Shown one piece after another: positions 13,366 to 61,437 of a stretch of DNA of 64,000 nucleotides. Position numbers and translations under genes: made by a program. The stretch is taken from assembly GCA_913061095.1 (NCBI GenBank), contig CAJXVM010000019.1, positions 1 to 64,000 on the forward strand, given 5' to 3'. Every line of letters begins with the position of its first letter. Positions within the stretch are counted from its first letter, which is position 1. The stretch comes from an uncultured Ignavibacteria bacterium. GTDB taxonomy: Bacteria; Bacteroidota; Ignavibacteria; SZUA-365. Below the pieces are notes generated by a model. The model was not told the origin of the DNA, made no database searches, and worked only from the letters and a program-made list of their open reading frames with translations.

Positions 13366-14674
13366 GCAGACAGTCGCCGCAGCGGCCCGGTGTGCAGAAG
13401 CCGGTGTACAGCTCGATCATGCCCTGCTGACGGACCGCGTGATCGCACGTGAGCTCCAGCGCCCGCGTGACGATACGCGTGTGCCGGTTTTCCGGCGATG
13501 GTGAAAGCCCGAAGAACAGCGCGGCCGCGGCGCGGGCAAGGCGGTCGCGCCCTTTCGCTCGCGCGTACAGATGCACGCTCGGCGCCAGCACATTCACGGC
13601 GAATTCGAACATACGCTCGGGACCCGGACTGCCGGTGCGCACGCGGGATGCGAACAGCGGCGCGAAAGATGCGGGGGATGCCACCCCTTCATCGATGACG
13701 GTGAACAGGGCGCGCCACCAGGCGGGACGATCGATCTGCGGCGCCCAGTCGGCCAGCCAGCGCATGCGCGGCCGGGGCCGGTTGCCGGGCAGAACGCCGG
13801 AGACATTCCAGTCGTGTGCGGTGGAGAGGAGTAATTCCTGGCGGACGGCGGGACGGGCGGCGGAAAGCTCGCGCAGGGGTACCGCGCGCGCGAGACGCTC
13901 GAACCCATCTTCATTCCCGCCGTAGCCGGCGGCCCGCGCGAACGCCTCGTACACCGCCTGCCGGAATGCATCGGCAGACGGCATGTCTTCGGCCAGCCGC
14001 TCCCAGCGCACCTCCAGCCGCGCGCGTTTGCGATTGAAGCGCTCCGCCGCCGCGAGCGTGATCATGGCGTCGGCGCGCTGCGGATCGGGCCGTTCGAAGC
14101 CGGAACGGCAGCGAAGCGGCGAACGCGACTGACGCGCCCGCGCCCATGCCCCGCGCAGCGGCTCCTGCATCTGGGTCGAGAGCACGACCAGCGGCGGACC
14201 GCCGGCGCCGCGGTTTTCGGCATACAGACAGACATGGAGAATGACATCATCATAGCGCGCATTGAGATGGTGGCGGTGACGATGCCAGTCGCTCTCGCGC
14301 ACATGTACTTCGATGCTGCCGCGACGCAGCACGCCGTCGATCACCACGGTGGCATCGAGAAAATCCGGACCGTCGTGCCGGTTGCGCCGCCCGGCGTCGA
14401 GCACGCGCACATCCTCCCCGCCTCGTGCTGTGAAGTGCCGCTCGGGATGCAGCTCACGCAGCCAGATGCCGATGACATGCTCTTCCGGCACCGCGGGACG
14501 CCGCTCGCGGATCGCCTGCGCCGGAAACGCCTGCGCCGGAAACGCCTGCGCCGGAAACGCCTGCGCCGGAAACGCCTGCGCCGGAAACGCCTGCACCGGA
14601 TCATGCGGCCTCTGATGGATGTGCGGTGGATGATGTGTGAGACGGATAACGGACACGGTGCTCCCAGATTCCAT
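13343..14674 (-). CDS. DUF2851 family protein
   Basis: About 443 aa. The family core is clear: EEHVIGIWLRELHP, the motif NRHDGPDFLDATVVIDG, SIEVHVRESDWHRHRHH and YDDVILHVCLY. The C-terminal Cys pattern is YTGFCTPGRCGDCLLG. DUF2851 is found mostly in Bacteroidota/Chlorobiota and has no known function; the acidic/His motif hints at a nuclease-like fold but this is not proven. The first ATG is at 14674; a GTG at 14722 would extend the product. Residues about 29-53 are five QAFPA repeats absent from typical members. It is the last gene after GT9, lipoprotein and rpe. Confidence 0.8.
   Translation of the reverse strand: MESGSTVSVIRLTHHPPHIHQRPHDPVQAFPAQAFPAQAFPAQAFPAQAFPAQAIRERRPAVPEEHVIGIWLRELHPERHFTARGGEDVRVLDAGRRNRHDGPDFLDATVVIDGVLRRGSIEVHVRESDWHRHRHHLNARYDDVILHVCLYAENRGAGGPPLVVLSTQMQEPLRGAWARARQSRSPLRCRSGFERPDPQRADAMITLAAAERFNRKRARLEVRWERLAEDMPSADAFRQAVYEAFARAAGYGGNEDGFERLARAVPLRELSAARPAVRQELLLSTAHDWNVSGVLPGNRPRPRMRWLADWAPQIDRPAWWRALFTVIDEGVASPASFAPLFASRVRTGSPGPERMFEFAVNVLAPSVHLYARAKGRDRLARAAAALFFGLSPSPENRHTRIVTRALELTCDHAVRQQGMIELYTGFCTPGRCGDCLLGKAGRG
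14513..14600. repeat. 15-bp coding repeat (QAFPA)
   Basis: CGCCTGCGCCGGAAA is repeated five times in perfect tandem (14513-14587), plus a degenerate sixth copy, inside the DUF2851 gene. It is in frame (15 bp = 5 codons), so copy-number changes would lengthen or shorten the protein without a frameshift. Confidence 0.9.
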
Positions 14675-17352: not shown

Positions 17353-18237
17353 ATGACACGGAAATCTTCGAACCAGTGGGCGCTGATCCTGGGCGTTTCG
17401 TCCGGATTCGGCGCGGCAGCGGCGCGGGAGCTCGCGCGGCACGGCTATCACATCCTCGGTATCCACCTCGACCGGCAGGCCACCATGCCCGCCGTAAACA
17501 AACTGATCGAGGATATCGAAGGACACGGCCAGAAAGCCGTCTTCTATAACATGAACGCCGCCGATGAACACAAGAGGCATGCCGCGCTGGACAATTTCGT
17601 GGACGCCTATCACCGCGAGGGACGCGCGGAGATCAAGGTGCTCATGCACTCGCTGGCCTTCGGCACCCTGCGCCCGCTGGTGGGACGCAACGAGGGCGAA
17701 ATGATCAAGAAGGCGCAGCTGGAAATGACCATCGACGTCATGGCCAATTCCCTGATTTACTGGATCCAGGACACTGTGCGCCGGGGACTCCTCGGACGCG
17801 GTGCGCGCATTTTCGCGATGACCAGCGACGGCGCCAACCTGAACCTCCCGTTCTACGGTGCGGTTTCCGCCGCCAAGGCGGCGCTGGAATCCTACATCCG
17901 CCAGCTCGCCATCGAACTCGGTCCCCGCGGCATCACCTGCAACGCCCTGCTCGCCGGTGTCACCGATACGCCCGCGCTCAGCAAAATCCCCGGCGCGAAA
18001 AACATGCTGTACGCAGCCGTCGCGAAAAATCCCTTCAATCGCGCCACGACGCCCGAGGATGTGGCGACGGCTATCATCGCTCTGCTGCAGGACGGCACCG
18101 AATTCATCAACGGCAACACCATCGGCGTCGATGGCGGCGAAAGCAAAATCAGCTACGTGGGACAGAAAACTCCCTACCAGTATGCCGATCTCAACCTCCT
18201 GACCGAAAGCTCCTGGGATCCGACCGACGTCTCCTAA
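17353..18237 (+). CDS. SDR-family enoyl-ACP reductase-like protein
   Basis: A 294-aa short-chain dehydrogenase. The cofactor loop GVSSGFGAAAA and the catalytic YGAVSAAK (Tyr-x6-Lys) resemble FabI/FabL-type enoyl reductases. MHSLAFGTLRPLVG and the C-terminal GNTIGVDGGESKI also match that branch. A likely role is reducing enoyl-ACP in fatty acid synthesis, using NAD(P)H in the cytoplasm. The neighbouring acyl-CoA dehydrogenase and acyltransferase also point to lipid metabolism, although each has its own spacing. Substrate assignment is by similarity of motifs only. Confidence 0.8.
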   Translation: MTRKSSNQWALILGVSSGFGAAAARELARHGYHILGIHLDRQATMPAVNKLIEDIEGHGQKAVFYNMNAADEHKRHAALDNFVDAYHREGRAEIKVLMHSLAFGTLRPLVGRNEGEMIKKAQLEMTIDVMANSLIYWIQDTVRRGLLGRGARIFAMTSDGANLNLPFYGAVSAAKAALESYIRQLAIELGPRGITCNALLAGVTDTPALSKIPGAKNMLYAAVAKNPFNRATTPEDVATAIIALLQDGTEFINGNTIGVDGGESKISYVGQKTPYQYADLNLLTESSWDPTDVS

Positions 18238-43564: not shown

Positions 43565-43638
43565 GGAGCCGTAGTTCAGTTGGTTAGAATGCCTGCCTGT
43601 CACGCAGGAGGTCGCGAGTTCGAGTCTCGTCGGCTCCG
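43565..43638 (+). tRNA. tRNA-Asp (GUC)
   Basis: A 74-nt cloverleaf without encoded CCA. Acceptor stem GGAGCCG / CGGCTCC, discriminator G, anticodon stem CCTGC / GCAGG with loop CTGTCAC and anticodon GTC (43599-43601), T-arm GCGAG-TTCGAGT-CTCGT (wobble at the end). It is intact even though an element has inserted at its 3' end, because the element supplies the same 3' sequence. Confidence 0.97.
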
Positions 43639-43639
43639 C
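43595..43639 (+). other. attL core (45-bp direct repeat)
   Basis: The 45 bp from the anticodon stem to one base past the tRNA-Asp gene are repeated exactly at 61329-61373. Flanking bases differ on both sides. This is the usual footprint of tyrosine-integrase insertion into a tRNA gene. Confidence 0.95.
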
Positions 43640-45435: not shown

Positions 45436-47280
45436 TCAACAATTCATCCTGCCCCCCTCATAGTACCAGACCCAGCCACCATGCAATCCATCCTTCTTGG
45501 CATTTATCCCCAAACGCCTCCGTGCCCGATGAAGTGTAGCTTTCGATATGCCGAGATCCTCTGCTTCAACCTCTCCTACCTTTGCCGGATATAAAGGGTC
45601 TTCCGCAAGTCTGGCCTTGAGAAATTCGACCGCCGTGGATTCAGCTGACTGTCGGTGGATTTCGGCGGGAGCAGGGCCGTACTCCACCCCACCCTGCGTG
45701 ATACCGAGCCCATACCTTTCTCTGTGCTCTGAGAGGTTGGCCTTCACCACGTCTAGCACAAGTTGACCAGCCTGCTCATAAAGAGCCAGAACACTACGTG
45801 CGTGCTGAACAATGGTCGATGAGCCCCGCAGGCGATGCATGGTCATCTTTTCCATGCCCTTCTTCGGCTTACCAAGGTGATGCAGCACCAGAATGGGTTT
45901 GCCGGTATCCCGGGCAATCTCCGCGAGGGGCTTGACGATCCGGAGCATCTTCGCCGAGTTCTCTTCTTCGTTGTGTCCACCGGAGAGCGAGTCAAGGACA
46001 CAGAATACCACATCCTTACGGCTAAGGCTCCTGTGAAGTGCCTCCCGATGCGCAGAGTCCTGCAGGTTAAAATCCGCATAGGGGTCTGTTAATGGACTGA
46101 GTATTCTGTCAACAGGCAGCCGCCACCGCTGTGCGCGGGACCTGTTCAATGTCTGTCCGGCCTCAGTCTCCAGCCAAACCACCTTCTGATTTCCATCGAG
46201 TACCATATCCGAGGGCAGTTCACCATCCGGCATGAAGTCTCCAAGCAGAATCCGACGGCACAGATCCAGGGCTACCATGGATTTCCCGATACCGCTTTCG
46301 CCGCCCATCATTGTAAGCATACCCATCGGGATCATATCCTGCCAAAGCCATCTGACCGTGGGGGATTCAGGGAGGTCCGCCCAAGTGCTTCCCGCGGCTT
46401 CACGGTCGTTGCGGCTTTTCTGCTCGGCCTCCTGCGACCGGGATGAACCGGCCGCCTGTGATTCCCTGTCGGGGCGTGGTAGATCCTCTCTCATCATTTG
46501 CTCATCCGGCGGGACTGTACGGGCGACCGGATCTTCCGTGCCTTGGGAGGAATGCAGTTCGTCAATGCGCACACGCAGCCAGAGAGGAAGCTCTGTGAGC
46601 CGGTTTTCCCATGGCCTACTCGAAAGCTCCCACTTAAGATTTCTGCCTGTCATGTCCAGGCTCGGCGGTACTAATGCAAAGCCACCCTCCGCATTGAGGT
46701 CGACACCCTCTAATAGTTTGCTGCCAGAAGGTATATTACGAGTTGGCATCCGGAAAAAAAGAACGTGCACTCCATCACCGGTCATGCACAGCACCGGGCT
46801 GTCAAGTGCCTTGCCATCTCCTCCAAGGCCTTGCATCGCATGAAAACCTTTGGTTCCGCTGTCTGTCTCGAGGGTAAGGATTCCGGAAGCTTCCCCCGTC
46901 GGTAATGCGATGTTCGCATCGGGCCATCTGCCCCACCACCTTCGGATCTTTTCCGGATCCGTCGAAGCCTCCACCCGCCAGTCGTCTATTCGTGGGTGCC
47001 TGCCGGGGGTGCGGCAGTCCTTTGCTCCACAGCTACAGTAACCGGATTCTGATACTACATGTACCGGAAAGACCGGCCATTTCAGTTCTAATGCATAGAA
47101 CAGTGCGTAGCTGGCCATCTCGGTCTTGCCTCCGGCCATCTCGAAAGGATTGATGGTGCGACCGTCAGGCCACTGGCCGAGATACTGCGGCCCGGCACCA
47201 TTCATACGCGAAACACCGTAGCCAGCAGTACCATCCACCTGCCAAAAATGGGCAACAGGAAAAATGTTGGTGTTTTTCAT
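45436..47280 (-). CDS. primase-polymerase/RepA-like helicase replication protein
   Basis: About 614 aa from the ATG at 47280, which follows GGAGG by seven bases. The N-terminal Prim-Pol domain (residues about 55-210) has YALELKWPVFPVH, a Cys trio, GRHPRIDDW, WPDANIALPTG, the catalytic region LTLETD (usually DxD), TGDGVHVLFF and GVDLNAEGGFALVPPS. A RecA-fold helicase follows, with Walker A GGESGIGKS (about 328) and Walker B VFCVLDS (about 426). The C-terminus is a winged-helix-like domain. Such proteins start and drive replication of plasmids and phage satellites. It is the second gene after the xis-like gene. Confidence 0.88.
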   Translation of the reverse strand: MKNTNIFPVAHFWQVDGTAGYGVSRMNGAGPQYLGQWPDGRTINPFEMAGGKTEMASYALFYALELKWPVFPVHVVSESGYCSCGAKDCRTPGRHPRIDDWRVEASTDPEKIRRWWGRWPDANIALPTGEASGILTLETDSGTKGFHAMQGLGGDGKALDSPVLCMTGDGVHVLFFRMPTRNIPSGSKLLEGVDLNAEGGFALVPPSLDMTGRNLKWELSSRPWENRLTELPLWLRVRIDELHSSQGTEDPVARTVPPDEQMMREDLPRPDRESQAAGSSRSQEAEQKSRNDREAAGSTWADLPESPTVRWLWQDMIPMGMLTMMGGESGIGKSMVALDLCRRILLGDFMPDGELPSDMVLDGNQKVVWLETEAGQTLNRSRAQRWRLPVDRILSPLTDPYADFNLQDSAHREALHRSLSRKDVVFCVLDSLSGGHNEEENSAKMLRIVKPLAEIARDTGKPILVLHHLGKPKKGMEKMTMHRLRGSSTIVQHARSVLALYEQAGQLVLDVVKANLSEHRERYGLGITQGGVEYGPAPAEIHRQSAESTAVEFLKARLAEDPLYPAKVGEVEAEDLGISKATLHRARRRLGINAKKDGLHGGWVWYYEGGRMNC

Positions 47281-47294
47281 CACGTTACCTCCTC

Positions 47295-47552
47295 TCAGCT
47301 GCAGCTGCAGTCTGTGCAGCGAGCGCTGCAGGTGCATGATGGATTCTCGCAGACTGCACCGCCGCCCTCGATCCAGCTGTCGAGGTCCTCGATGCGGAAG
47401 TAGAGTTTCTTTCCCGACGGTTTGAAGGCCCTGATCCGGCCATCTTTCACATGCCGGTAGAGCATAGTCACGGAAATGTTGAGATAATCGGCGGCTTCCC
47501 GGGTGGATAGTGGCCTTCTGATCGTGCAGTTTTGTTCATTCATAGTGTTCAT
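47295..47552 (-). CDS. excisionase/AlpA-like HTH protein
   Basis: 85 aa from the ATG at 47552, chosen because AAGGAG stands seven bases before it. The core LSTREAADYLNISVTMLYRHVKDGRIRAFKPSGKKLYFRIEDLDSWIE is the MerR-like helix-turn-helix of excisionase/AlpA proteins. The end is Cys-rich (CENPSCTCSARCTDCSC), which is unusual and may bind metal. It stands 14 bp before the replication gene, so both are probably co-transcribed. Likely roles are directing excision by the integrase or switching on the replication gene. The 389-bp gap on its other side reaches the CRISPR array and holds only a hairpin. Confidence 0.85.
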   Translation of the reverse strand: MNTMNEQNCTIRRPLSTREAADYLNISVTMLYRHVKDGRIRAFKPSGKKLYFRIEDLDSWIEGGGAVCENPSCTCSARCTDCSCS

Positions 47553-47863
47553 GGAAGAACTCCTTTGCATGGGATGCCTCCGCGCGGTGGATACTTGAAT
47601 TAGGGTAATGGACAAAATGAGTCCACGCGGCGTGCATCATGTACCGCAAAGTACTATCAGAAAACAGCCAAGTTGAATCCGTCCCTGTGCTGTTCCTTTC
47701 AGTGAGGATATTTTTTTTTGGCTGGGCGATCCGGCTGCGGGCAGAATGCATGGACAGATCGCGACGGCCTGAATTGCGGGAAGGCTGGGAGGTTTGCAGG
47801 AAATCTTGATGCAGCAGTCCTGTAGACCAGAGAGGTGTTCGGAAGTTGGCACATAGCAATAAA

Positions 47864-47941: not shown

Positions 47942-48485
47942 CTACCAGCTTTCATCCAATGGCCATGAAGGAAGGACATCTGATGCAGCCGGAGCCGCCG
48001 CCGTCTCTTTCCAGTGCCAGCTTTCATCCAATGGCCATGAAGGAAGGACCGTTGAAGGTTGAACGTGTGAATAGACCATCGTGGTTTGTGCCAGCTTTCA
48101 TCCAATGGCCATGAAGGAAGGACCTGGACTGGAACAAGCGCATGGTCCCGGTCGTGATCGTGCCAGCTTTCATCCAATGGCCATGAAGGAAGGACGGGGC
48201 GACCTGGTGGTTGACGAAGCCCTCGCAAATTCGTGCCAGCTTTCATCCAATGGCCATGAAGGAAGGACACCTGTGCCGATCTCGGCATCCGTTGCGCCAC
48301 CAAGTGCCAGCTTTCATCCAATGGCCATGAAGGAAGGACATGTAGTCGAGGACATGGGGAAGGCGAGAGACCTATTGTGCCAGCTTTCATCCAATGGCCA
48401 TGAAGGAAGGACTTTGAGGCATTCAAGATCCGCGTTTCAGAGGTCAACGGTGCCAGCTTTCATCCAATGGCCATGAAGGAAGGAC
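47942..48485 (-). CRISPR. type V-B CRISPR array, 8 repeats and 7 spacers
   Basis: 36-bp repeats start at 47942, 48014, 48088, 48160, 48233, 48304, 48377 and 48450, with spacers of 36, 38, 36, 37, 35, 37 and 37 bp. In the guide direction (minus strand) the repeat begins GTCCTTCC and ends GAAAGCTGGCAC; the TGGCAC end matches the GTGGCAC ending known for type V-B repeats. Seven repeats are identical. The one at 47942 has changes in its last three guide-sense bases, which marks the leader-distal end and confirms transcription towards lower coordinates. The repeat has an internal stem (TTCAT / ATGAA). Confidence 0.98.
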
Positions 48486-48680
48486 CGCAGCCCCTGTAAC
48501 CTACGCGATGCATGCAGGTTGTGTGATTGAATACGAGCAGTCTGTAATCAAGCGAAGAGAAATGACAGAACACTAGCATGAGCGAGGGGGAACCTCCAAT
48601 TTCAGGGTCAATGGCCGAACGAGCAGCCCGGGGTGGTGATGGCCAATGCAGCTGCTCGCATGCATTACGTCAAAGAACAA
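48486..48680 (-). promoter_or_regulatory. CRISPR leader region
   Basis: 195 bp between the tracrRNA anti-repeat and the first leader-proximal repeat, with no open frame of note. New spacers should enter at 48485. No convincing promoter hexamers were identified, so the array could be read from here or through the tracrRNA region. Confidence 0.6.
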
Positions 48681-48766
48681 CCAATGGATAAAAACCATCA
48701 GTGGGTGGCGGGTCTTTTCAACAGCCGTGGCACTGCCACTGAATCCGACGCAGCCCTGTAGGCTGC
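48681..48766 (-). ncRNA. tracrRNA for Cas12b
   Basis: Read on the minus strand: a 6-bp hairpin GCAGCC / GGCTGC (48766-48750), then CAGTGG (48741-48736), then GTGCCA (48733-48728), an internal hairpin, CCACTG (48704-48699), and finally the anti-repeat (48697-48681). CAGTGG pairs with CCACTG. GTGCC pairs with the GGCAC end of the repeat. The anti-repeat pairs with 16 of 17 repeat bases starting CCATTGG, four of the pairs being G-U. This order (5' hairpin, long-range stem, short pairing, hairpin, long anti-repeat) is that of known Cas12b tracrRNAs, and the place between cas2 and the array also fits. Confidence 0.85.
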
Positions 48767-48797
48767 ACATGCAGGATGTGAAATTCTGACAAAGAAA

Positions 48798-49097
48798 TCA
48801 ATAGATCATATCAGATTTATGGGACAGAATCAGCCGAGTGCCGAGGACCTGCCACTGCTCAGGAAGAGATGCTCTCGCCCCGTCGACCGTCCCAAGGGTG
48901 ATCAATATGACCTGGTCCTCTTTGTGGTGAATGATGTCCTTTATCTTTTCCATCAGAACGACCTTATCCTTTTCCGAAAGCTGACACAGGAATACCGAAT
49001 ACTGGACATGGTCGCCATACCCGCGCAGCAGCCTGAACATGTGGCGCAGCCGGGTGTCATCAGCAATGTCGTAAGCCACCAAGACAAAACTCCGCAT
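48798..49097 (-). CDS. cas2: CRISPR-associated endoribonuclease/adaptation protein Cas2
   Basis: A 99-aa ferredoxin-fold protein. The start FVLVAYDIADDTRLRHMFRLLRGYGDHVQYSVFLCQL is the Cas2 signature, with the conserved Asp after the first strand. It forms the central dimer of the Cas1-Cas2 spacer integrase. It starts three bases after the cas4-cas1 stop on the same strand. The gene's end is 31 bp from the start of the tracrRNA hairpin. Confidence 0.97.
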   Translation of the reverse strand: MRSFVLVAYDIADDTRLRHMFRLLRGYGDHVQYSVFLCQLSEKDKVVLMEKIKDIIHHKEDQVILITLGTVDGARASLPEQWQVLGTRLILSHKSDMIY

Positions 49098-49100
49098 GGT

Positions 49101-50828
49101 TCACCTCGTTGTCAATGGCCGATAGTCAGTCAATTCTCCTGTCAGGTACCTACCGAAGAGTCTTGCTTCGAGCGTGAAGATCCGCCGGTAACTCAACCGG
49201 TACCCGAAACTGGGATGAGTGACCATCTCGTCAACCCGCCGTTCATATGCCTTGATCCATTTCTTCTTTGCATGAGGCTTCATTGCGCAGTACTGATCAG
49301 TTATCACAAAATCTTCCTGAGTGAATGTACCCTCGTTAACAGCACGGAGGACTGCTGAGTCCACCACGAGGGGACGGAAGGCTTCCATCAGATCAAGCGC
49401 CAGAGCAGGGCGCCCGGCAACTGTGGCATGGAAAAAACCAAACATAGGATCCATCCCACAACCATGAATGGCTGAGATGAAATCTCTGAGAAGCATCGTG
49501 TACCCGTATGAAAGCATTGCATTGATTGGATCATGAGGTGGCCTCCGGTTCCGGCTTTTCATCTGAAAGCCTTCTGCGGCCTTGGACTGGAACAGTTGTG
49601 GATACATCTCCCAGTACCTCTTCGCGGCATACCCCTCAATTCCACGCAGGGAATCTGCATCAGTGGCCTCAAGTGCATTCCGCATACATGCACGCAGCGC
49701 CCTCAAAACTGCGGTATTCGCTTCACTACCATTCCTTCTGATAAATACCCGCTGATTCTCAATTTTTGCAAGAATGATGTTCCTGGTGATGCAAAGGCAT
49801 TGTGGTGTGTCATCGCACACTGAGTACTGCCGACGGCGAAGCTCGACTTTCTTCTCAAGGGGCTTGGCCGTGATGGCCCTAATCCATCCACCGGTTGTCA
49901 ACCATGTGATATTGATGCCGCGATCGGTAAGCGCCAGCATCAACGATGTAGATAGCTGGACCTGTCCCCAACAGCAAACATGCGCTACGTCTTTGATGGG
50001 CACAAAAGTGACTGGCTCATCCGGCACGACAATCCTCATGGACTCACCGGATTTCCCGGCCGATGTGCCCGGCGTAAGCAGATGAAGAATCCCCTCGTCG
50101 TCTCTGCCCGGAAAGAGTTGCCTCGGTTCCGCAAGCACACCGCTTAGACAGGACGTTTCATCCGGCAGGCAGACATGATTCATGGAACAACGGATGCATT
50201 TCTTGGAATCCACGAGGGGTCCCGGCATAGGTGCAGCAGCCATGCCATGCGTCTGATCGATGACATGCCGCAGCGCCATCTCGAGGCTGGGATCCCATTG
50301 TATCTCCACCAGCTTCCTGCTGCCCCTGTAGTATATCCGTCCTACATTGCATTGATGCCCGGTCTCTCGAAGGAGCGCAATTTGTCCAGCAAGTTGGATC
50401 TGGTCATTTGGCCATGCCGAGGCTTTCAACGACGCAGGCCCGATGAAGAATGGAGCATCCCCCGATGGCGCTTCACCTTTTTTCACCTCAACCGGGATTT
50501 GCTCTGTTCCTTCATCAAGAATTACATCAAACTTGCCATGGATCCCGAGGATCTCTGAATAAAGAGTCATCTCATTGACCATGCCCTCTGGCCATGGAGT
50601 CTCTTCATTGCCTTCCTCCAGTGTCCCCTCCCGCTTGCCAGCGGATCGAACCGCCTTCGACCTGCTCAACCTTTTCCTGTGGGCGATGCGGCCGGTAATC
50701 GTATCAACATTCTCCTCGAACAGTTCCTGCACATACATCAGGTGGAACAATCTTGGGCAGTATACATACTCATTCAGGCCGCGCAGCGGGGTGCTGAATG
50801 TTTCCCCGGATTCAGAGGCGGAGTTCAT
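49101..50828 (-). CDS. cas4-cas1: Cas4-Cas1 fusion protein
   Basis: 575 aa from the ATG at 50828, which overlaps the end of cas12b by 17 bp. The Cas4 part (1-225) has Cys24 in YCPR, Asp101 in GKFDVIL, Glu114 and Lys116 in VEVKKG, and Cys211/214/220 in KKCIRCSMNHVC: the RecB-like nuclease site and a four-Cys Fe-S site. The Cas1 part (about 265-575) has the metal-binding residues Glu398 (RGIEGYAAKRY), His467 (GFFHA) and Asp479 (LALDLMEAFRP). The fused protein trims prespacers, selects them by PAM and integrates them. This fusion is typical of type V-B (also seen in some I-U systems). All key residues are present. Confidence 0.97.
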   Translation of the reverse strand: MNSASESGETFSTPLRGLNEYVYCPRLFHLMYVQELFEENVDTITGRIAHRKRLSRSKAVRSAGKREGTLEEGNEETPWPEGMVNEMTLYSEILGIHGKFDVILDEGTEQIPVEVKKGEAPSGDAPFFIGPASLKASAWPNDQIQLAGQIALLRETGHQCNVGRIYYRGSRKLVEIQWDPSLEMALRHVIDQTHGMAAAPMPGPLVDSKKCIRCSMNHVCLPDETSCLSGVLAEPRQLFPGRDDEGILHLLTPGTSAGKSGESMRIVVPDEPVTFVPIKDVAHVCCWGQVQLSTSLMLALTDRGINITWLTTGGWIRAITAKPLEKKVELRRRQYSVCDDTPQCLCITRNIILAKIENQRVFIRRNGSEANTAVLRALRACMRNALEATDADSLRGIEGYAAKRYWEMYPQLFQSKAAEGFQMKSRNRRPPHDPINAMLSYGYTMLLRDFISAIHGCGMDPMFGFFHATVAGRPALALDLMEAFRPLVVDSAVLRAVNEGTFTQEDFVITDQYCAMKPHAKKKWIKAYERRVDEMVTHPSFGYRLSYRRIFTLEARLFGRYLTGELTDYRPLTTR

Positions 50829-53800
50829 CGCTACTCTGCCTCTCGAGGGACACCTTTTGCATCTCCTGCCATATCCTGTCACGAGTTGAAGACCAGAAGA
50901 CCTTTGATGGGATCCATCTGTTGCTCTCGAACAAAATGCCTGAGGGATCCCGGAAGAAGGTCTCCCGGCGGGTCCCGGCTTCCTCTGGCATGTCCGCAAG
51001 CAGTTCATCGAGTTCTCCGTCTTCCGCCCGGGCCTTCCCTTCGGCCGCTTTCGTGCCCTTTTTCCTGCCCGCCCTGGTCATAACGTAGGATACCCCATCG
51101 TCGGCGGGTGTGAGGTGAAATTCCCCTTTGCCATTCTCGAGCTGCTGGAGAGCACCGAGAAGCCGTGCGCCGGGAGTATGGTCGAGATGGTAGCCGCCAT
51201 CTTCTCCCACCGCGAGGCAGGTGATCCGGCTTGCCTCTCCGCAACGGGTCCAGAAGCGGCGCTGAAGATTCTGCGCAGCGTTGATGTCGGCATGGATCAC
51301 CCGCAGCTTTTCGTCAGCCCCAAAGCTTGCGAACAGTTCTCCTCCGCGCCACGGAACCATCATGCCCGGACGTATCACCCAGCGCAATGCCTCCCGGGCC
51401 TTCTCGGCATTACCATGGAACGAGGGGCCGAGCATCCATCCGAGCTCCGCGGCGAGGTACGGGCGGGGAAGTTCATCGGCGAAATCTTCCGCCGTCAGTA
51501 CCCGGCAACGAACACCCGGCGCACCGCTGCTGGCGTGGAACCGGCTGCTGAATCCGGCAGCCGTGGTTTCCGTGATGATCCCGTAGAGTTCTGCCTGCAT
51601 GGTGGTCTCGGCGGAGATCTCCCGGTGGTTCCACTTCATCAGCTGCGAGTTCTCCCGCCGGGGCCTGTCGACCCGAAAGCGGTACCGCGCCAGGTCTTCG
51701 AACAGGATCAACCGACATGGTGCGAAACGCTGCTGCCAGCCGGGACCATCGGGATTGGTTAGATAGCCGCGTGCGGCCTGCACCAGAAGGTCCGCCCCGG
51801 TTTTCGTGCGGTCCTCTTTCAGCTTGTTGATGTGCCGGAGCAGTCCAGCGGCCACGGTGCCATGCTCCGCCCGGTTCAGGCGGTTGATCTCGCCGAACTT
51901 CCTGCCGTGGAGACTCCAGCTCATGATCAGCCGGCGGACCGAGTCGAGGTACTCGATGGCCCACACGGACTTGCCGCCGTTGTAGGCCCTCTTCTCGCGC
52001 CGCTCCTGCCATGAAGAGGACTTGCCCCGCGTGGCCCGCCTCCATTCGCCGAATCGTTGGGAAAGCTGCTTCTCGGCCATAGCATGAAACTGCTGGCACC
52101 GCTGCATCCAAAGTTCAGGCGTGCTGCGAAAGCTGGTGTCCCTGAGTCCCTCGTAATCCTCCCGCCGGAATCCCGGCACATCGTCATCCGCGACTCCGTC
52201 ACCGGCTGGCATTGCTTCGAGCAGTGCTCCAAGCTGCGCATCCCTTTCCTGGTCGTTGTCCTCCGCTCCCAGCTGCAGCATGCGCCGGAGCAGCCGCATG
52301 TCGCGGCGAAGGGCCCGGACCTGACCGGCGGCTTCCCTCCTTGCGCTCTCCTCCCGGGTGGTCGTGGCTTCGCCCGGCAGCCGGAGGGTAAAGCTGCGCT
52401 CATGCAGGGCCCAGAGCTTCCGCGGATCGTTCTCTTCCCTGCCGTCTGCCGCAGGAAAAGCCAGGCCTTTCTCCGGTCGACCCTCGACGAGTTCGAACAC
52501 CGAACATGCGGCGAATGAACGGAGCCCGAGATCCACCGACAGCACCCGCAGGCCCGCCCGGATCTTGTCACGGTACTTGCTCTTGTTCGACAGCGCCGTG
52601 TTGAAGTGATGCACTTCCGGCGGCGTCTGAATCCTTCCCCTGCCGTCGAGCCATTCCTCCGGCGCCTTGGTGTGCACATCGAGCGTGAGTTTGAACCACA
52701 CCGGACCGATTCTGCCGCTTTCCAGCTGCTCCTCTTTCCGACGGGGCTCCTCGATATATGGCCGGTCAAAAAGGATTTCCGCACCGCCGGCTTCCCCTTC
52801 GAAGTCCTGATGGGCGGAACGGTATTGGAGCAGCATCTTTTTCCCGTCCCTGCTCAGAGTGAGATCGGAAAGCTGTCCACTCGGGGCCAGACGGCAGAGG
52901 TGTTCCTCCTCGGTGAGACCACCGTTGTCATTTCGATTCAGGAGCTTGATGCGCAGGAGCAGCTTCTCTCCGGCTGTTTCGAGGGCATAGTTGCGAAGGT
53001 TGGACCCGCCCGGAGCCTCGTACATGATCCATCGCGGATGCAGGCGGGAATCGGCGAACGTCATGAGGGAAAATTCCTGCCTGCGGCTCAGCAGCAGGTG
53101 CGCCATGTTGATCTTGACGAAGGGCACGACGGCATCGTCCTCCCGCCAGAGGTGTTCCCTGCCCTCGGCAGCGAGCCATCGGAAGAAATCCGGATCCCCG
53201 AATCCGCCGCGGAGCCGGGATTGCAGCTGCGCGAGGATCTCCATCCGGGACGCGGCGTCCTTGCCCTTCTGGAGCCAGTCCTGCCTGATCTGGTCCCAGG
53301 CGCGGATGCTTCGGCTGCCGATGCGGAACGGCCGGTCGTCGCTGGCGAGAGCCACCTCCTTGAGCCTTTCGTGGCGGGCGCGTTCGTACTCCCGCAGGAC
53401 ATCGAACACGGACTTGAGGTGGACATGCTCTTCGATGAGGGCATTGTATGCAGCCGCGGCGGCGTTGTGTTCCGCCTTGGTGTTGTGGTTCCAGCTTTCC
53501 CATGACAGAAGATGCGCAATGGCGAGACGCATGGCGAGGCGGTCCCAAACGCTGACGCCCTTTCCTCCGGAATTGAGCTTCATGCGGAAATGCGGCAGCA
53601 CGAGCGGCAGCAGACCGAGGCGCTTGAGTTCCCTAATGACCGGGGCATTCCCTCTTTCGATTTCCCGGCGTTTCTTCTCCTGGTCCTCAATAAATGCATC
53701 CTGCCAGTCCTGACCGTTGCGTAGGCGCCTGACCCACGCGGGAGGACTGCCGGTGGCGGATAGGAGCGGCAAGGCTTCCACCGACTGCAGCCATGCAGCC

Positions 53801-55282: not shown

Positions 55283-55957
55283 ATGAAGACATTTCTATAC
55301 CTCATTCCCGTCTCATTTCTGCTCACTGCCTGTGCAGGCTGGCAGACGCATTCCGACCACCCCATCCGCTTGAAGCTCATCTCCGGGCAACAGATGCGTG
55401 GTGTCATCGTGTCCGTCAGGGACAGTGCGGTAGTACTCGACACCCTCTCAAGCCACAATGAGTACGAGGCATTGGCGCCTCTCTCCAGAATCCCCGACAT
55501 GAAAGGCCTCACGACCGTCACTGCTCGTCAGATCGACTCGGTGTATCTCAACCGGGGCAGCCACACATTTTCCGGTATCATGATCGGCTTCCTCGTCGGT
55601 GGAGGGGCGGGACTGGCAGCCGGCAGTGCCGGAGGTCGGGACGATGACGGCTCCAGGCTCCGTCTGAAACCCTTTAGAACCGAACCGATCGGGAATGGTG
55701 ATGAAGGCAGGGACGGTGTCGAGCAGCTGATGTATGTGCTCGGCGGCGGACTCATCGGAGCTTTGGCCGGCAGCTTCATCGGATCCTCCATCGCCGTTGA
55801 GGAAACCATATACACCAACAAGGCTCACGCGAAACCACTTTCGGATCTCACCCCTCTCCGCAAGTATGCCGTCTTCCCTGACGATGAACCACCGCTGCTG
55901 CAAAGCTACAGACCCTCAGGCGGCTCAGTTCAGACTGCTCCTTCCGGCGGGAAATGA
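55283..55957 (+). CDS. element-borne lipoprotein with glycine-rich membrane segments
   Basis: 224 aa from the ATG at 55283, preceded by GGAGG. Signal with lipobox (LIPVSFLLTACAG). A strand-rich part follows (LKLISGQQMRGVIVSVRDSAVVLDTL), and then two Gly-rich hydrophobic stretches (GIMIGFLVGGGAGLAAGSAGG and YVLGGGLIGALAGSFIGSSIAV) that look like membrane-inserting glycine-zipper helices. It runs against the surrounding genes and overlaps the end of the DUF932 gene by 33 bp. It may change the host cell surface, as lipoproteins carried by phages and satellites often do. Function unproven. Confidence 0.75.
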   Translation: MKTFLYLIPVSFLLTACAGWQTHSDHPIRLKLISGQQMRGVIVSVRDSAVVLDTLSSHNEYEALAPLSRIPDMKGLTTVTARQIDSVYLNRGSHTFSGIMIGFLVGGGAGLAAGSAGGRDDDGSRLRLKPFRTEPIGNGDEGRDGVEQLMYVLGGGLIGALAGSFIGSSIAVEETIYTNKAHAKPLSDLTPLRKYAVFPDDEPPLLQSYRPSGGSVQTAPSGGK

Positions 55958-56935
55958 CGACGGCTTCTCCATTGCCATATCCGCGGCTACGGCAAAGGCC
56001 TGCCGCTTGATTTCCCCTCCCGTGCCGAACTGCGTGGACTCTACCCACTCCTTCGCCGGACGCACGTGATCCACCCATTCCGTGATGGCATTGTAGGCGT
56101 CCCATACCGTGCGACCGTGGTTTCCTTTCCCCACTGCGTAGAGATCGGTCAGCTGCAGCATGCGATTGCGCCACACGTTCCGCCGAAGCCGGTCATCGTT
56201 CCACTTCCGAAGGTCCGGCATGACCGCCATGAAGTACGGCGTCGGATCCGGCAGCGGGGTCTCCGCCATGCGTTCCATCTCCTCCCGCGCCCGGTCGAAG
56301 TCCATCTCCGCCTGCCCGATGGCTTCCATGACCTGCTCGAGCCGCTCGCGAATGCCTCGCAGGTGCTTGAGAGAGAACTGTGCCTCCTTCCCCCGCAGTG
56401 CAAGGTTCAGGGTGTTGTTGCACACCACACGTACCGGCGTCGGACGCAGCAGCAGCGGTGTCGAACCGTCATGCGAGAGCACCAAAAGGAAGTACCTGCG
56501 CACCTCGTCATCTGCGACCGTGATGGACTCCGGCAGTCGCGCGAGGATCCACACGCGGCGGCCGTCACGCACCGCACCGGCAGACTCATAGACACATCCC
56601 CGGTCAATCAGTGCCCGGTCAAAGACCGAGAATGCCTCATCATTCTGCAGCACTTCGTACTTGCGTCCTACCACCCCGAGCACATGCGGATGATTCTCGG
56701 CGTCGTAGCGGACCGTGGCGAAGGCGGGGGCAGGAACATACTGCCGATGGATCGAAAGCCCGTCCTGGCCGTCCAGACGCGCGTACAGCGGCTTCTTGTG
56801 TACATGCCAGTCGAGTCCTGCAAGCCGCAGTGCATCGGGTGTGGACGGCGGCATGTCGAGCCGTACGCCCTTTCGGTGCCACGCCGCCTCGCCGACGACG
56901 AAGCAGGCTCTGTCGTCCATGATCATGTCAGCCAT
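55925..56935 (-). CDS. DUF932 phage/plasmid-like protein
   Basis: 336 aa from the ATG at 56935, with GGAGGT before it. The DUF932 (TIGR03299-like) features are AWHRKGVRLD, VVGRKYEVLQNDEAFSVFDRAL, YFLLVLSHDGSTPLLLRPTPVRVVCNNTLNLAL and SLKHLRGIRERLEQ. Members occur on plasmids, phages and integrative elements, usually beside recombination or replication genes; their role is unknown. Its start overlaps the stop of the RecT-like gene by eight bases, so the two are coupled. Confidence 0.88.
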   Translation of the reverse strand: MADMIMDDRACFVVGEAAWHRKGVRLDMPPSTPDALRLAGLDWHVHKKPLYARLDGQDGLSIHRQYVPAPAFATVRYDAENHPHVLGVVGRKYEVLQNDEAFSVFDRALIDRGCVYESAGAVRDGRRVWILARLPESITVADDEVRRYFLLVLSHDGSTPLLLRPTPVRVVCNNTLNLALRGKEAQFSLKHLRGIRERLEQVMEAIGQAEMDFDRAREEMERMAETPLPDPTPYFMAVMPDLRKWNDDRLRRNVWRNRMLQLTDLYAVGKGNHGRTVWDAYNAITEWVDHVRPAKEWVESTQFGTGGEIKRQAFAVAADMAMEKPSSFPAGRSSLN

Positions 56936-58073
56936 GATGACCTCCGTTTCGTGATTGTGTGTGGGTGTGGTGCTGGGTTGCTGTGACTGCCTCGGGATGC
57001 GATGGGATCTCCACGCCCTTCCCTTCGGCCACCATGCGCAGCATCTCATGCAGCTGCTCATCGCCGATCTCCGGATCTTTCCAGCGGTGCCTGAGCAGTT
57101 CCAGCTCTTCGGACGTACAATGCGGCTTGAGGGCGAGAACGGCATGCACCAGATGCTGCTGCCGCTCCGGTGTCGCCCGAACGGTTCTGCTGGCCGGTGA
57201 CTCTGCCGGATCCACCGATGCTTCCGCTGCGTTCTCAGCGGGCTCGGCCGCGGCCGCCTCAGTCACGAGCTCGGTACCGGCCTGCATACGATTGACGGAA
57301 GTATCATCCTGCGAATGGATGGAGGTTGAGGACGGTGGCGTTGTTTCATGCAGGAGCCAACCATGGCCTGTCGGCTGTCCGTCCTCATCCTCCTCCATTC
57401 CAAGTTCGTCCGGCGTGTAGACGCCCGAAACCACATCGGGACAGTACCACCGCGCACCATTCGACAATGCCCGGGCGTAAAGCATGTTCCGGGGATACCG
57501 GCGCCAGTTTTCTCCGCCGGCCACATCCGCCCGCCGCGCATCCTCGATGGTGAATTGCGAGATGCCCATTGGCTCCCATGCCCCGTTCGCTCTTTCGAAG
57601 AACTCGATATGGCAGGCACCTTCGTCATGACGGCGGACAAGGAATCTGTACCGCTGCGAACGCTTGATGAGGGCTGCCATCGCCTGTGCGCTGAGTGCAA
57701 CCTTCCCCCGGATGATGTTGATGGTGGTCATGGCCTCGAGCGGCGGGATGCCAAGCTCCCTGCCCTTGAGCACTTTGACGATGGCCTGCGCCGCACTGCG
57801 GATGTCCTGGAACAGCCCGGACTGATGGAAGATTTCTCCGAGGTCACGGACGTCCATTGCCGACTCGATTGTGATCGGTGAGGGCCTCCCATTCGCGCGG
57901 GGAGCCGCATTGGAGGCCTCAACGGCGTGTCCGGCACCGTGCATCACCGGCGGGCGATCAACGGACTGAGCGGGCCTGTATGAAGCCCGTTCGGGACTGG
58001 ACTGCGTTGCCCTGCCGGTGAATGCCGGACGGCGAAGCCGCGAGGTGTCGCCAGCGTGTTCATTCTCCTTCAT
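56928..58073 (-). CDS. RecT-like single-strand annealing protein
   Basis: A 381-aa protein. The core at about residues 75-235 (AAQAIVKVLKGRELGIPPLEAMTTINIIRGKVALSAQAMAALIKRS ... YPRNMLYARALSNGARWYCPDVVSGVYTPDELG) matches RecT-family-like annealing proteins of phages and plasmids. The N-terminus and the region from about 240 are low-complexity, and the last about 60 residues look helical. It would anneal complementary single strands during element replication or recombination. No partner exonuclease (RecE or lambda-exo type) is evident in the element. The family call rests on motif similarity alone. Confidence 0.65.
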   Translation of the reverse strand: MKENEHAGDTSRLRRPAFTGRATQSSPERASYRPAQSVDRPPVMHGAGHAVEASNAAPRANGRPSPITIESAMDVRDLGEIFHQSGLFQDIRSAAQAIVKVLKGRELGIPPLEAMTTINIIRGKVALSAQAMAALIKRSQRYRFLVRRHDEGACHIEFFERANGAWEPMGISQFTIEDARRADVAGGENWRRYPRNMLYARALSNGARWYCPDVVSGVYTPDELGMEEDEDGQPTGHGWLLHETTPPSSTSIHSQDDTSVNRMQAGTELVTEAAAAEPAENAAEASVDPAESPASRTVRATPERQQHLVHAVLALKPHCTSEELELLRHRWKDPEIGDEQLHEMLRMVAEGKGVEIPSHPEAVTATQHHTHTQSRNGGHHG

Positions 58074-60240: not shown

Positions 60241-61248
60241 TCACCAACCCTCACCAAGCTTGGCCACGACATCATGCATGGTCTCCGGCTGCAGGTGCGC
60301 GTAGATTTCGGTGGTGCGGGTGTTGGCATGGCCGAGGAGCCGAGCAACCTGATACAGGGACACGCCGTCCTGCACCAGCCAGGAAGCGAACGTGTGCCGC
60401 AGTGAGTGGAAGTGAATGGATTCCGGCAGTCCGGCCTGCCGCACGAAACGCTTGAAGGCCAGTGTGAGGCTATCCCTGCGGATCGGCTTGCGGTTGTATA
60501 TGAACACGCGGCTATGCTCCTGCGGGCGGCTCTCCAGCACATCCATGGCAGCTTGGTTGAGAGGCACATTCCGCCGCTTGCCGGCCTTGGTCTTGAACGT
60601 CGCCGTGCTTGTCACATGCACCACGCGCCGGGCCATGTCCACCTGCGACCATTCGAGGTGCAGAATCTCTCCCTGCCGCATCCCGGTGTAAACAGCGAAC
60701 ACGACGATCGGCCGGATCCAGCTGTCGCCTATGCAGTCACAGAGCTGACGGAACTGTTCCCTGCTGAGGTATGCGGGAGGCTTTTCGGGGATGCGGATCA
60801 TCTGCACACCGGCGAATGGATTCCTGGGAATCATCTCCCACCGGACGGCATGGTTGAAGGCACTGCGAAGTGTTCGCAGCTGGATGTTGACCGACACCGG
60901 TGAGAGTTCCGACATCCGCTGGGCCTTGAACCGGTCGACATCGACCGCACGGATGCGGATCAGAGGCTTGTCGCCAATGATGGCGAGGAGGGCATTCAGG
61001 GACAGCCTGTAGACTTCCTGTGTCTTCGGTGCACTGTTGATACTGACATAGTCGAGGATCTTCGGGATGAAGCTGCTGAGGTCGATACGCCGGGTGGTCT
61101 CCTTCGGTTCAAGCCCGGCGATGACAATGGCCATTGCCTCAGCTTTGTTCTTGGTCCGGGTGGAGACCCATTTGTCCTGCCCGAAGGATTGATCACGTAG
61201 GTAGTAGTAGCCGTTCGATCGTCGGATGAGAGTGCGTTTGGTGCTCAT
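60241..61248 (-). CDS. int: tyrosine integrase
   Basis: 335 aa from the ATG at 61248. An N-terminal arm-binding-like region (RRSNGYYYLRDQSFGQDKWVSTRTKNKAEA) and a core-binding helical part (QEVYRLSLNALLAIIGDKPL) precede the catalytic domain. Catalytic residues: Arg191 (YTGMRQGEIL), His281 and Arg284 (HSLRHTF), His307 (LLGHANTRTT) and Tyr316 (EIYAHL). All are intact. It catalyses site-specific insertion and removal at tRNA-Asp. It stands 81 bp from the right attachment core, the usual place. Confidence 0.96.
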   Translation of the reverse strand: MSTKRTLIRRSNGYYYLRDQSFGQDKWVSTRTKNKAEAMAIVIAGLEPKETTRRIDLSSFIPKILDYVSINSAPKTQEVYRLSLNALLAIIGDKPLIRIRAVDVDRFKAQRMSELSPVSVNIQLRTLRSAFNHAVRWEMIPRNPFAGVQMIRIPEKPPAYLSREQFRQLCDCIGDSWIRPIVVFAVYTGMRQGEILHLEWSQVDMARRVVHVTSTATFKTKAGKRRNVPLNQAAMDVLESRPQEHSRVFIYNRKPIRRDSLTLAFKRFVRQAGLPESIHFHSLRHTFASWLVQDGVSLYQVARLLGHANTRTTEIYAHLQPETMHDVVAKLGEGW

Positions 61249-61261
61249 GGTAGGCCCTTCC

Positions 61262-61279
61262 AGTAACAGTGAAGTAACA
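61262..61279 (+). promoter_or_regulatory. putative integrase arm-type sites, right
   Basis: AGTAACA at 61262-61268 and GAAGTAACA at 61271-61279, 11 bp apart, just upstream of the integrase start and 50 bp from the right core. They match the left pair at 43746-43766. Confidence 0.55.
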
Positions 61280-61328
61280 TGGATGTACTTCATTGCCCTG
61301 TCTGCCCTGTATGGCCCAATTTCGGGGA

Positions 61329-61373
61329 GCCTGTCACGCAGGAGGTCGCGAGTTCGAGTCTCGTCGGCTCCGC
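61329..61373 (+). other. attR core (45-bp direct repeat)
   Basis: Exact copy of the tRNA-Asp 3' part at 43595-43639. The 5' half of the tRNA is missing here, so it is not a gene. The displaced chromosomal 3' flank follows directly. Confidence 0.95.
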
Positions 61374-61377
61374 ACAA

Positions 61378-61419
61378 CGAAACGCAAGCCGTTTTCTTCA
61401 AAGGAAACGGCTTGTTTCG
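61378..61419. terminator. original tRNA-Asp terminator, bidirectional
   Basis: Ten-bp stem CAAGCCGTTT / AAACGGCTTG with outer arms CGAAA / TTTCG and T-rich flanks. It was the terminator of tRNA-Asp before the insertion. It also ends the minus-strand two-component operon. Confidence 0.85.
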
Positions 61420-61437
61420 TTCCTTCCCCTCCACCAA

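Follow-up and report, generated by a model that had tools for sequence, protein, structure and literature searches.

A very probable tracrRNA of a type V-B (Cas12b) locus, encoded between cas2 and the CRISPR array

The guide RNA of type V-B CRISPR-Cas systems contains both a long and a short repeat/anti-repeat duplex (PMC11246509), and a bulge in the second stem-loop holds the short anti-repeat (PMC11246509, PMC11423069). Published V-B tracrRNAs have three stem-loops, most loci share the pairing of the bulge with the end of the repeat, and in 11 of 15 published loci the order is cas12b, cas1, cas2, tracrRNA, array (PMC11423069). tracrRNAs lying between cas12b and the array were detected by RNA-seq (PMC6342934), and V-B tracrRNAs at such a position are already well known (PMC11423069, PMC6342934). 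Here we describe an element of this kind in a 64-kb window, by which we mean the whole stretch of 64,000 nucleotides that was analyzed. Based on its sequence and architecture, the covariation of its stems, its pairing with the cognate repeat, and the intact effector and array that accompany it, we propose with little doubt that the element serves a type V-B (Cas12b) CRISPR-Cas system as its tracrRNA.

Judged by its gene content, the locus is a complete type V-B system consisting of cas12b, a cas4-cas1 fusion, cas2, and a CRISPR array (Table 1), and its gene order is that of the 11 published loci. The element sits between cas2 and the array, on the strand of the cas genes and the array. The acidic RuvC residues of Cas12b (D592, E870, and D1007) are kept and fall in invariant columns. 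In a scan of approximately 85,000 genomes, the nearest relatives of this Cas12b are 57% (L006) and 56% (L007) identical, and it is the only Cas12b among 391 genomes of its class. The true start of the cas4-cas1 fusion is probably near 50830. Seven of the eight repeats are identical, while the repeat farthest from the leader (47942) has a degenerate 3' end, and the repeat is found nowhere else in the 4.6-Mb genome. Two observations concern other cas12b loci: the Alicyclobacillus dauci gene (L003:5998-9365) is annotated as two ORFs owing to a frameshift, and a 253-kb viral contig (L005, IMGVR_UViG_3300038393_003162) encodes a distant Cas12b-like protein, with 24% identity over part of its length, beside a 7-repeat CRISPR array.

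Table 1. Features of the V-B locus and of the island that carries it, in window coordinates.
Feature	Position	Strand	Basis or remark
Predicted tracrRNA core	48681..48766	-	Blind covariance model match 48765-48698, 30.3 bits; anti-repeat pairing
5' hairpin GCAGCC-UACAG-GGCUGC	48750..48766	-	Helix 1 of 23-element alignment
Closing stem, 5' arm CAGUGG	48736..48741	-	Covariance model, helix 2
Short anti-repeat GUGCC	48729..48733	-	Pairs with GGCAC ending each repeat (pseudoknot)
Internal hairpin GGC.GUU(gaaaa)GAC..GCC	48707..48726	-	Helix 3
Closing stem, 3' arm CCACUG	48699..48704	-	Covariance model, helix 2
Long anti-repeat UGGUUUUUAUCCAUUGG	48681..48697	-	Pairing with repeat; cognate repeat ranks 1 of 17
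Candidate promoter TTGATT-17-CATCCT	48773..48801	-	By-eye comparison of upstream regions; weak; overlaps cas2 end
Leader between tracrRNA and array	48486..48680	-	
Leader motif CGAGC	48658-48654	-	-173 from first repeat
Leader motif GCTCG	48624-48620	-	-139 from first repeat
Leader motif GCTCG	48538-48534	-	-53 from first repeat
CRISPR array, 8 repeats GTCCTTCCTTCATGGCCATTGGATGAAAGCTGGCAC (36 nt), 7 spacers of 35-38 nt	47942..48485	-	
cas2	48798..49097	-	PADLOC Cas2g E 1.3e-25
cas4-cas1 fusion	49101..51008	-	PADLOC Cas1g E 3.7e-148, Cas4d 5.3e-34, one ORF
cas12b, 1164 aa	50812..54306	-	PADLOC Cas12b E 2.5e-302; PDB 5wti, 5wqe, 5u34 matches
Prim-Pol/AAA protein	45436-47337	-	
Excisionase-like	47295-47615	-	
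DUF932 protein	55925-57145	-	
RecT-like protein	56928-58073	-	
Tyrosine integrase	60241-61437	-	

From 48766 onward, in the 5' to 3' direction of the minus strand, the element consists of the 5' hairpin, a linker, CAGUGG, CA, GUGCC, the internal hairpin, CCACUG, a single A, and UGGUUUUUAUCCAUUGG. The pieces described in the initial annotation are all present where it put them, and all of its coordinates hold; it set the 5' hairpin apart from the rest, but this hairpin is where the element starts. The CUANAGG loop of the hairpin (CUACAGG in the window) is common to nearly all V-B tracrRNAs. The long anti-repeat complements the repeat's 3' half, and GUGCC, in the bulge of the second stem-loop, complements its last 5 nt. 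The tally made at the outset for the 17-nt anti-repeat, 12 Watson-Crick and 4 G-U pairs plus one mismatch, is correct. These pairs exist, but the G-U pair of U48697 with the first G of GGCAC competes with the full GUGCC:GGCAC helix; because both need that G, no more than 15 pairs of the long anti-repeat can form alongside the 5 short pairs. The transcript is probably about 85-100 nt long, possibly with its 3' end a few nt past 48681.

Pairing between the anti-repeat tail and the repeat is specific. Only 2 of 5000 dinucleotide shuffles of the tail pair with the repeat as well, and the window's repeat:anti-repeat duplex has an energy of -23.1 kcal/mol, versus a mean of -11.7 with 16 non-cognate repeats. 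We extended this comparison across Cas12b loci using a collection of 28 loci and the A. dauci plasmid locus (L003), 16 of which have an array usable for pairing. The own repeat is the best partner of the anti-repeat tail in 16 of 17 loci, the window among them, and the sole exception is between two closely similar Bacilli. Summed over the 17 loci, the cognate energy is -533 kcal/mol, compared to a permutation mean of -213 (sd 29), and none of 20000 permutations reaches the cognate sum. The short anti-repeat also changes with the end of the repeat; for instance, GUGCU is found with AGCAC, and GUCCC with GGGAC. In the 16 compared loci, about 200-270 nt separate the tracrRNA-like element from the array downstream of it.

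Could a better anti-repeat lie elsewhere, for example upstream of cas12b, as the initial annotation had allowed? Across both strands of the 64-kb window, our composite anti-repeat scan found no stronger candidate. The element has the top score outside the array (37) and is the only candidate in 64 kb with a GTGCC 28-52 nt upstream. Because the next score is 36, the anti-repeat score alone is unremarkable over 64 kb; it is the combination with GTGCC and the position that are remarkable. Upstream of cas12b in the window there is nothing tracr-like. A natural single-guide RNA resembling tracr-L, sought both there and near the locus, was not found in the window.

The genome-wide search used only a covariance model, with 68 positions, trained on seven tracrRNA cores from other loci, with the window left out. 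The cores were aligned by hand for each structural element with N padding, as MAFFT alone misaligned the stems. The model's best match in the window is 48765-48698 on the minus strand (30.3 bits, E 4.4e-5), and in the 4.6-Mb genome, where its E-value is 0.003, no other match has an E-value of 10 or below. A second match in the window (47829-47801, 10.4 bits, E 1.4) covers only the 5' hairpin, without GUGCC, and was taken as chance. No tracrRNA match came from Rfam, where no family reached threshold. About 20 other Cas12b loci carry the element, mostly 200-270 nt from the array where the array is visible. The 16 loci compared for pairing belong to genomes of Alicyclobacillus, Bacillus, Peribacillus, Brevibacillus, Laceyella, Planctomycetota, Desulfobacterota-type bacteria, Elusimicrobia, and Acidobacteria. 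In Laceyella sediminis (L031), there are two tracrRNA copies (14299-14362 and 18071-18134), and downstream of each lies an array; the two arrays have the same repeat.

An alignment of 23 elements, including three second elements from Bacilli loci (L015, L016, and L018; described below), was used to examine covariation. Standard pairs fill 93.2% of the stem cells of the alignment; shuffles give 54.2%, and slid versions no more than 47.6%. There are 154 two-sided changes versus 45 in shuffles, affecting 15 of the 16 stem pairs; these figures are somewhat inflated, since the alignment was fitted to the model. Helix 1, the 5' hairpin, is 94.7% paired and 4 of its 5 pairs changed on both sides. All six pairs of helix 2, the closing stem, covary (96.4% paired), as do all five pairs of helix 3, the internal hairpin (87.6% paired). 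The same element in some 20 other Cas12b loci, its covarying stems, and anti-repeats that track their own repeats bear out the V-B tracrRNA architecture that had been recognized from the window alone.

The three Bacilli loci carry a second, divergent tracr-like element upstream of cas12b (L015:8743-8810, L018:8458-8522, and L016:8773-8839, all on the minus strand). In each, the closing stem leads into a short hairpin or linker, then GGCAC or AGCAC, and finally a stretch resembling a guide. In every one of the three loci this stretch matches the 5' region of cas12b after an ATTT PAM (none of 1000 shuffles per locus), with 6-7 nt, a 2-nt bulge, and then 9-10 matches in the next 11-12 nt. These second elements look like putative natural single-guide RNAs that could repress cas12b, comparable to the tracr-L of Cas9; a search of open-access papers turned up no report of a V-B natural single-guide RNA.

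The V-B leaders also share sequence features. In 10 of 17 loci (the window, L003, L010, L011, L016, L018, L024, L027, L028, and L029), versus 0.4 expected, a motif, (G/A)CTCG, sits at a fixed distance of 52-54 nt ahead of the first repeat, and several others have a near match there. Further upstream, an inverted CGAGC...GCTCG pair about 34 nt apart lies near -178/-144, and in the window at -173/-139. As a guess, (G/A)CTCG might be a binding site for Cas1-Cas2 or a host factor. The leader end (48486-48523) resembles the 5' flank of the tracrRNA (48749-48780, minus strand), with the pattern CACANCCTGCATG...TACAGG.GCTGCG or CACA.CCTGCATG...TACAGG.GCTGCG. As good a likeness arises in 15 of 2000 shuffles, and none was seen by eye in the other loci. 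Lastly, the stretch TCTTTGA lies 3' of the anti-repeat in the window (48671-48677, minus strand) and in several non-Firmicute loci (L008, L010, L012, L017, L019, and L030).

Self-pairing of GTGGCA-G-TGCCAC had been raised as a caution at the outset, and for the RNA alone it is justified: the minimum-energy fold (-31.3 kcal/mol) hides GUGCC and most of the anti-repeat. The open V-B fold is at -23.0 kcal/mol, and this gap of 8.3 kcal/mol for the free RNA counts against the tracrRNA reading. The cost of opening in other tested loci is 0-3.5, a rough comparison, as the long anti-repeat was not forced open there. This raises the possibility that the tracrRNA is sequestered by its own fold (GUGGC-AGU-GCCAC and the anti-repeat hairpin) and opens only on contact with the crRNA, so that guide assembly would be gated. 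A terminator scan also picks the anti-repeat hairpin (48702-48680). However, the energy estimates have no protein or pseudoknot terms, the gap may be a by-product of the GTGCC/GGCAC and CCAT/ATGG letters, and no conserved alternative helix is seen in other loci, and we regard such gating as quite unlikely. For the bound state we estimate about -52 kcal/mol, compared with -36 when the RNAs are apart; the sum is rough, since none of the programs applied handles a pseudoknot with protein. Therefore, pairing with the repeat should outweigh self-pairing.

Returning to the tracrRNA reading, we propose the following mechanism, in which transcription, processing, binding, PAM, and cleavage are taken from what is known of the family. 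Transcription of the minus strand would start just upstream of 48766 and yield a small RNA of its own from the interval that separates cas2 from the array. The long anti-repeat would pair with the repeat's CCAUUGGAUGAAAGCU, and GUGCC, in the bulge closed by CAGUGG/CCACUG, with the repeat-terminal GGCAC. RNase III would presumably process the duplex, and the resulting dual guide RNA, bound by Cas12b, would direct DNA cutting beside a T-rich PAM. The promoter is tentatively assigned by position, because the consensus scan does not reach TTGATT-17-CATCCT: at a threshold of 9 of 12, no consensus promoter was found upstream of the element, which counts against the tracrRNA reading. Related loci have TTGACA/TATAAT-like boxes at the corresponding place, with a TATAAT-like box shortly 5' of the hairpin in, for example, L018, L011, L009, and L012.

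The weak promoter boxes would also fit a decayed tracrRNA in an inactive system, as would the short array with its degenerate distal repeat. Spacer searches of phage and plasmid collections returned only chance-level matches, which likewise fits decay and counts against the tracrRNA reading. Against this, the tracrRNA has kept all its stems and both anti-repeats, the RuvC residues and cas ORFs are likewise intact, the other repeats are identical, and degenerate distal repeats are normal, and we consider decay very improbable. Finally, a 65-aa ORF on the same strand (48573-48770) overlaps the element, but the idea that this ORF is the functional unit and the pairing arises by chance has practically nothing left to it: such short, overlapping ORFs occur often in every frame of this region, the blind model match, compensatory changes, and cognate pairing across loci oppose it, and the covariation already refutes the ORF as the sole explanation.

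The V-B system lies within a 17.7-kb island bounded by a 45-bp perfect direct repeat of the 3' end of tRNA-Asp (43595-43639 and 61329-61373). No virion genes were recognized among the island proteins scanned, and a congener has an apparently empty site (G042:C319:4429-4586, 86% identity over the junction). One could join these observations with the fold described above: the tracrRNA would serve a V-B module that is cargo of a tRNA-Asp integrative element, its guides would protect both this element and the host from competing elements, and the self-sequestering fold would hold the guide RNA inactive until crRNAs are made. We regard this joint account as speculative and unlikely as a whole.

The predicted tracrRNA would complete the guide RNA for a Cas12b whose identity to any other in the collection searched does not exceed 57%. 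A dual or single guide RNA can thus be defined, and the nuclease could be assayed with it right away. The alignment of 23 elements also gives a covariance model for V-B tracrRNAs, where no Rfam family reached threshold, and shows how far conservation of the architecture reaches beyond Firmicutes.

Among known systems, the element is like the V-B tracrRNAs of Alicyclobacillus (A. dauci, L003; A. kakegawensis, L024; A. suci, L027; the AacCas12b type) in its 5' hairpin with a CUANAGG loop, closing stem, GUGCC bulge, internal hairpin, and anti-repeat, and in its position, which in Alicyclobacillus is about 200 nt upstream of the array. The Alicyclobacillus tracrRNAs differ in having two anti-repeat blocks around a bulge that cover most of the repeat, whereas the window has one block of 15-16 pairs beside the GUGCC duplex and leaves the 5' part of the repeat unpaired. 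Architecture and position are also shared with the tracrRNAs of Bacillus, Peribacillus, and Brevibacillus (L015, L016, and L018), and L015 likewise has one continuous anti-repeat; the stem sequences differ, however, and the extra tracr-like element upstream of cas12b in these Bacilli has no counterpart in the window. The same parts are found in Desulfonatronum (L008), Planctomycetota (L009), and Deltaproteobacteria tcs-42 (L010), which have the closest Cas12b among the MAGs in which the element is still seen. Of these, L008 and L010 share with the window the TCTTTGA directly after the anti-repeat, while in L008 and L009, unlike in the window, the element directly follows cas12b with no cas1 or cas2 between. 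Beyond type V-B, the element resembles the natural single-guide RNA tracr-L of type II-A (Cas9) systems in being a tracr-like RNA for a class 2 effector, but tracr-L bears its own guide, whereas the element in the window ends in an anti-repeat and needs crRNAs.
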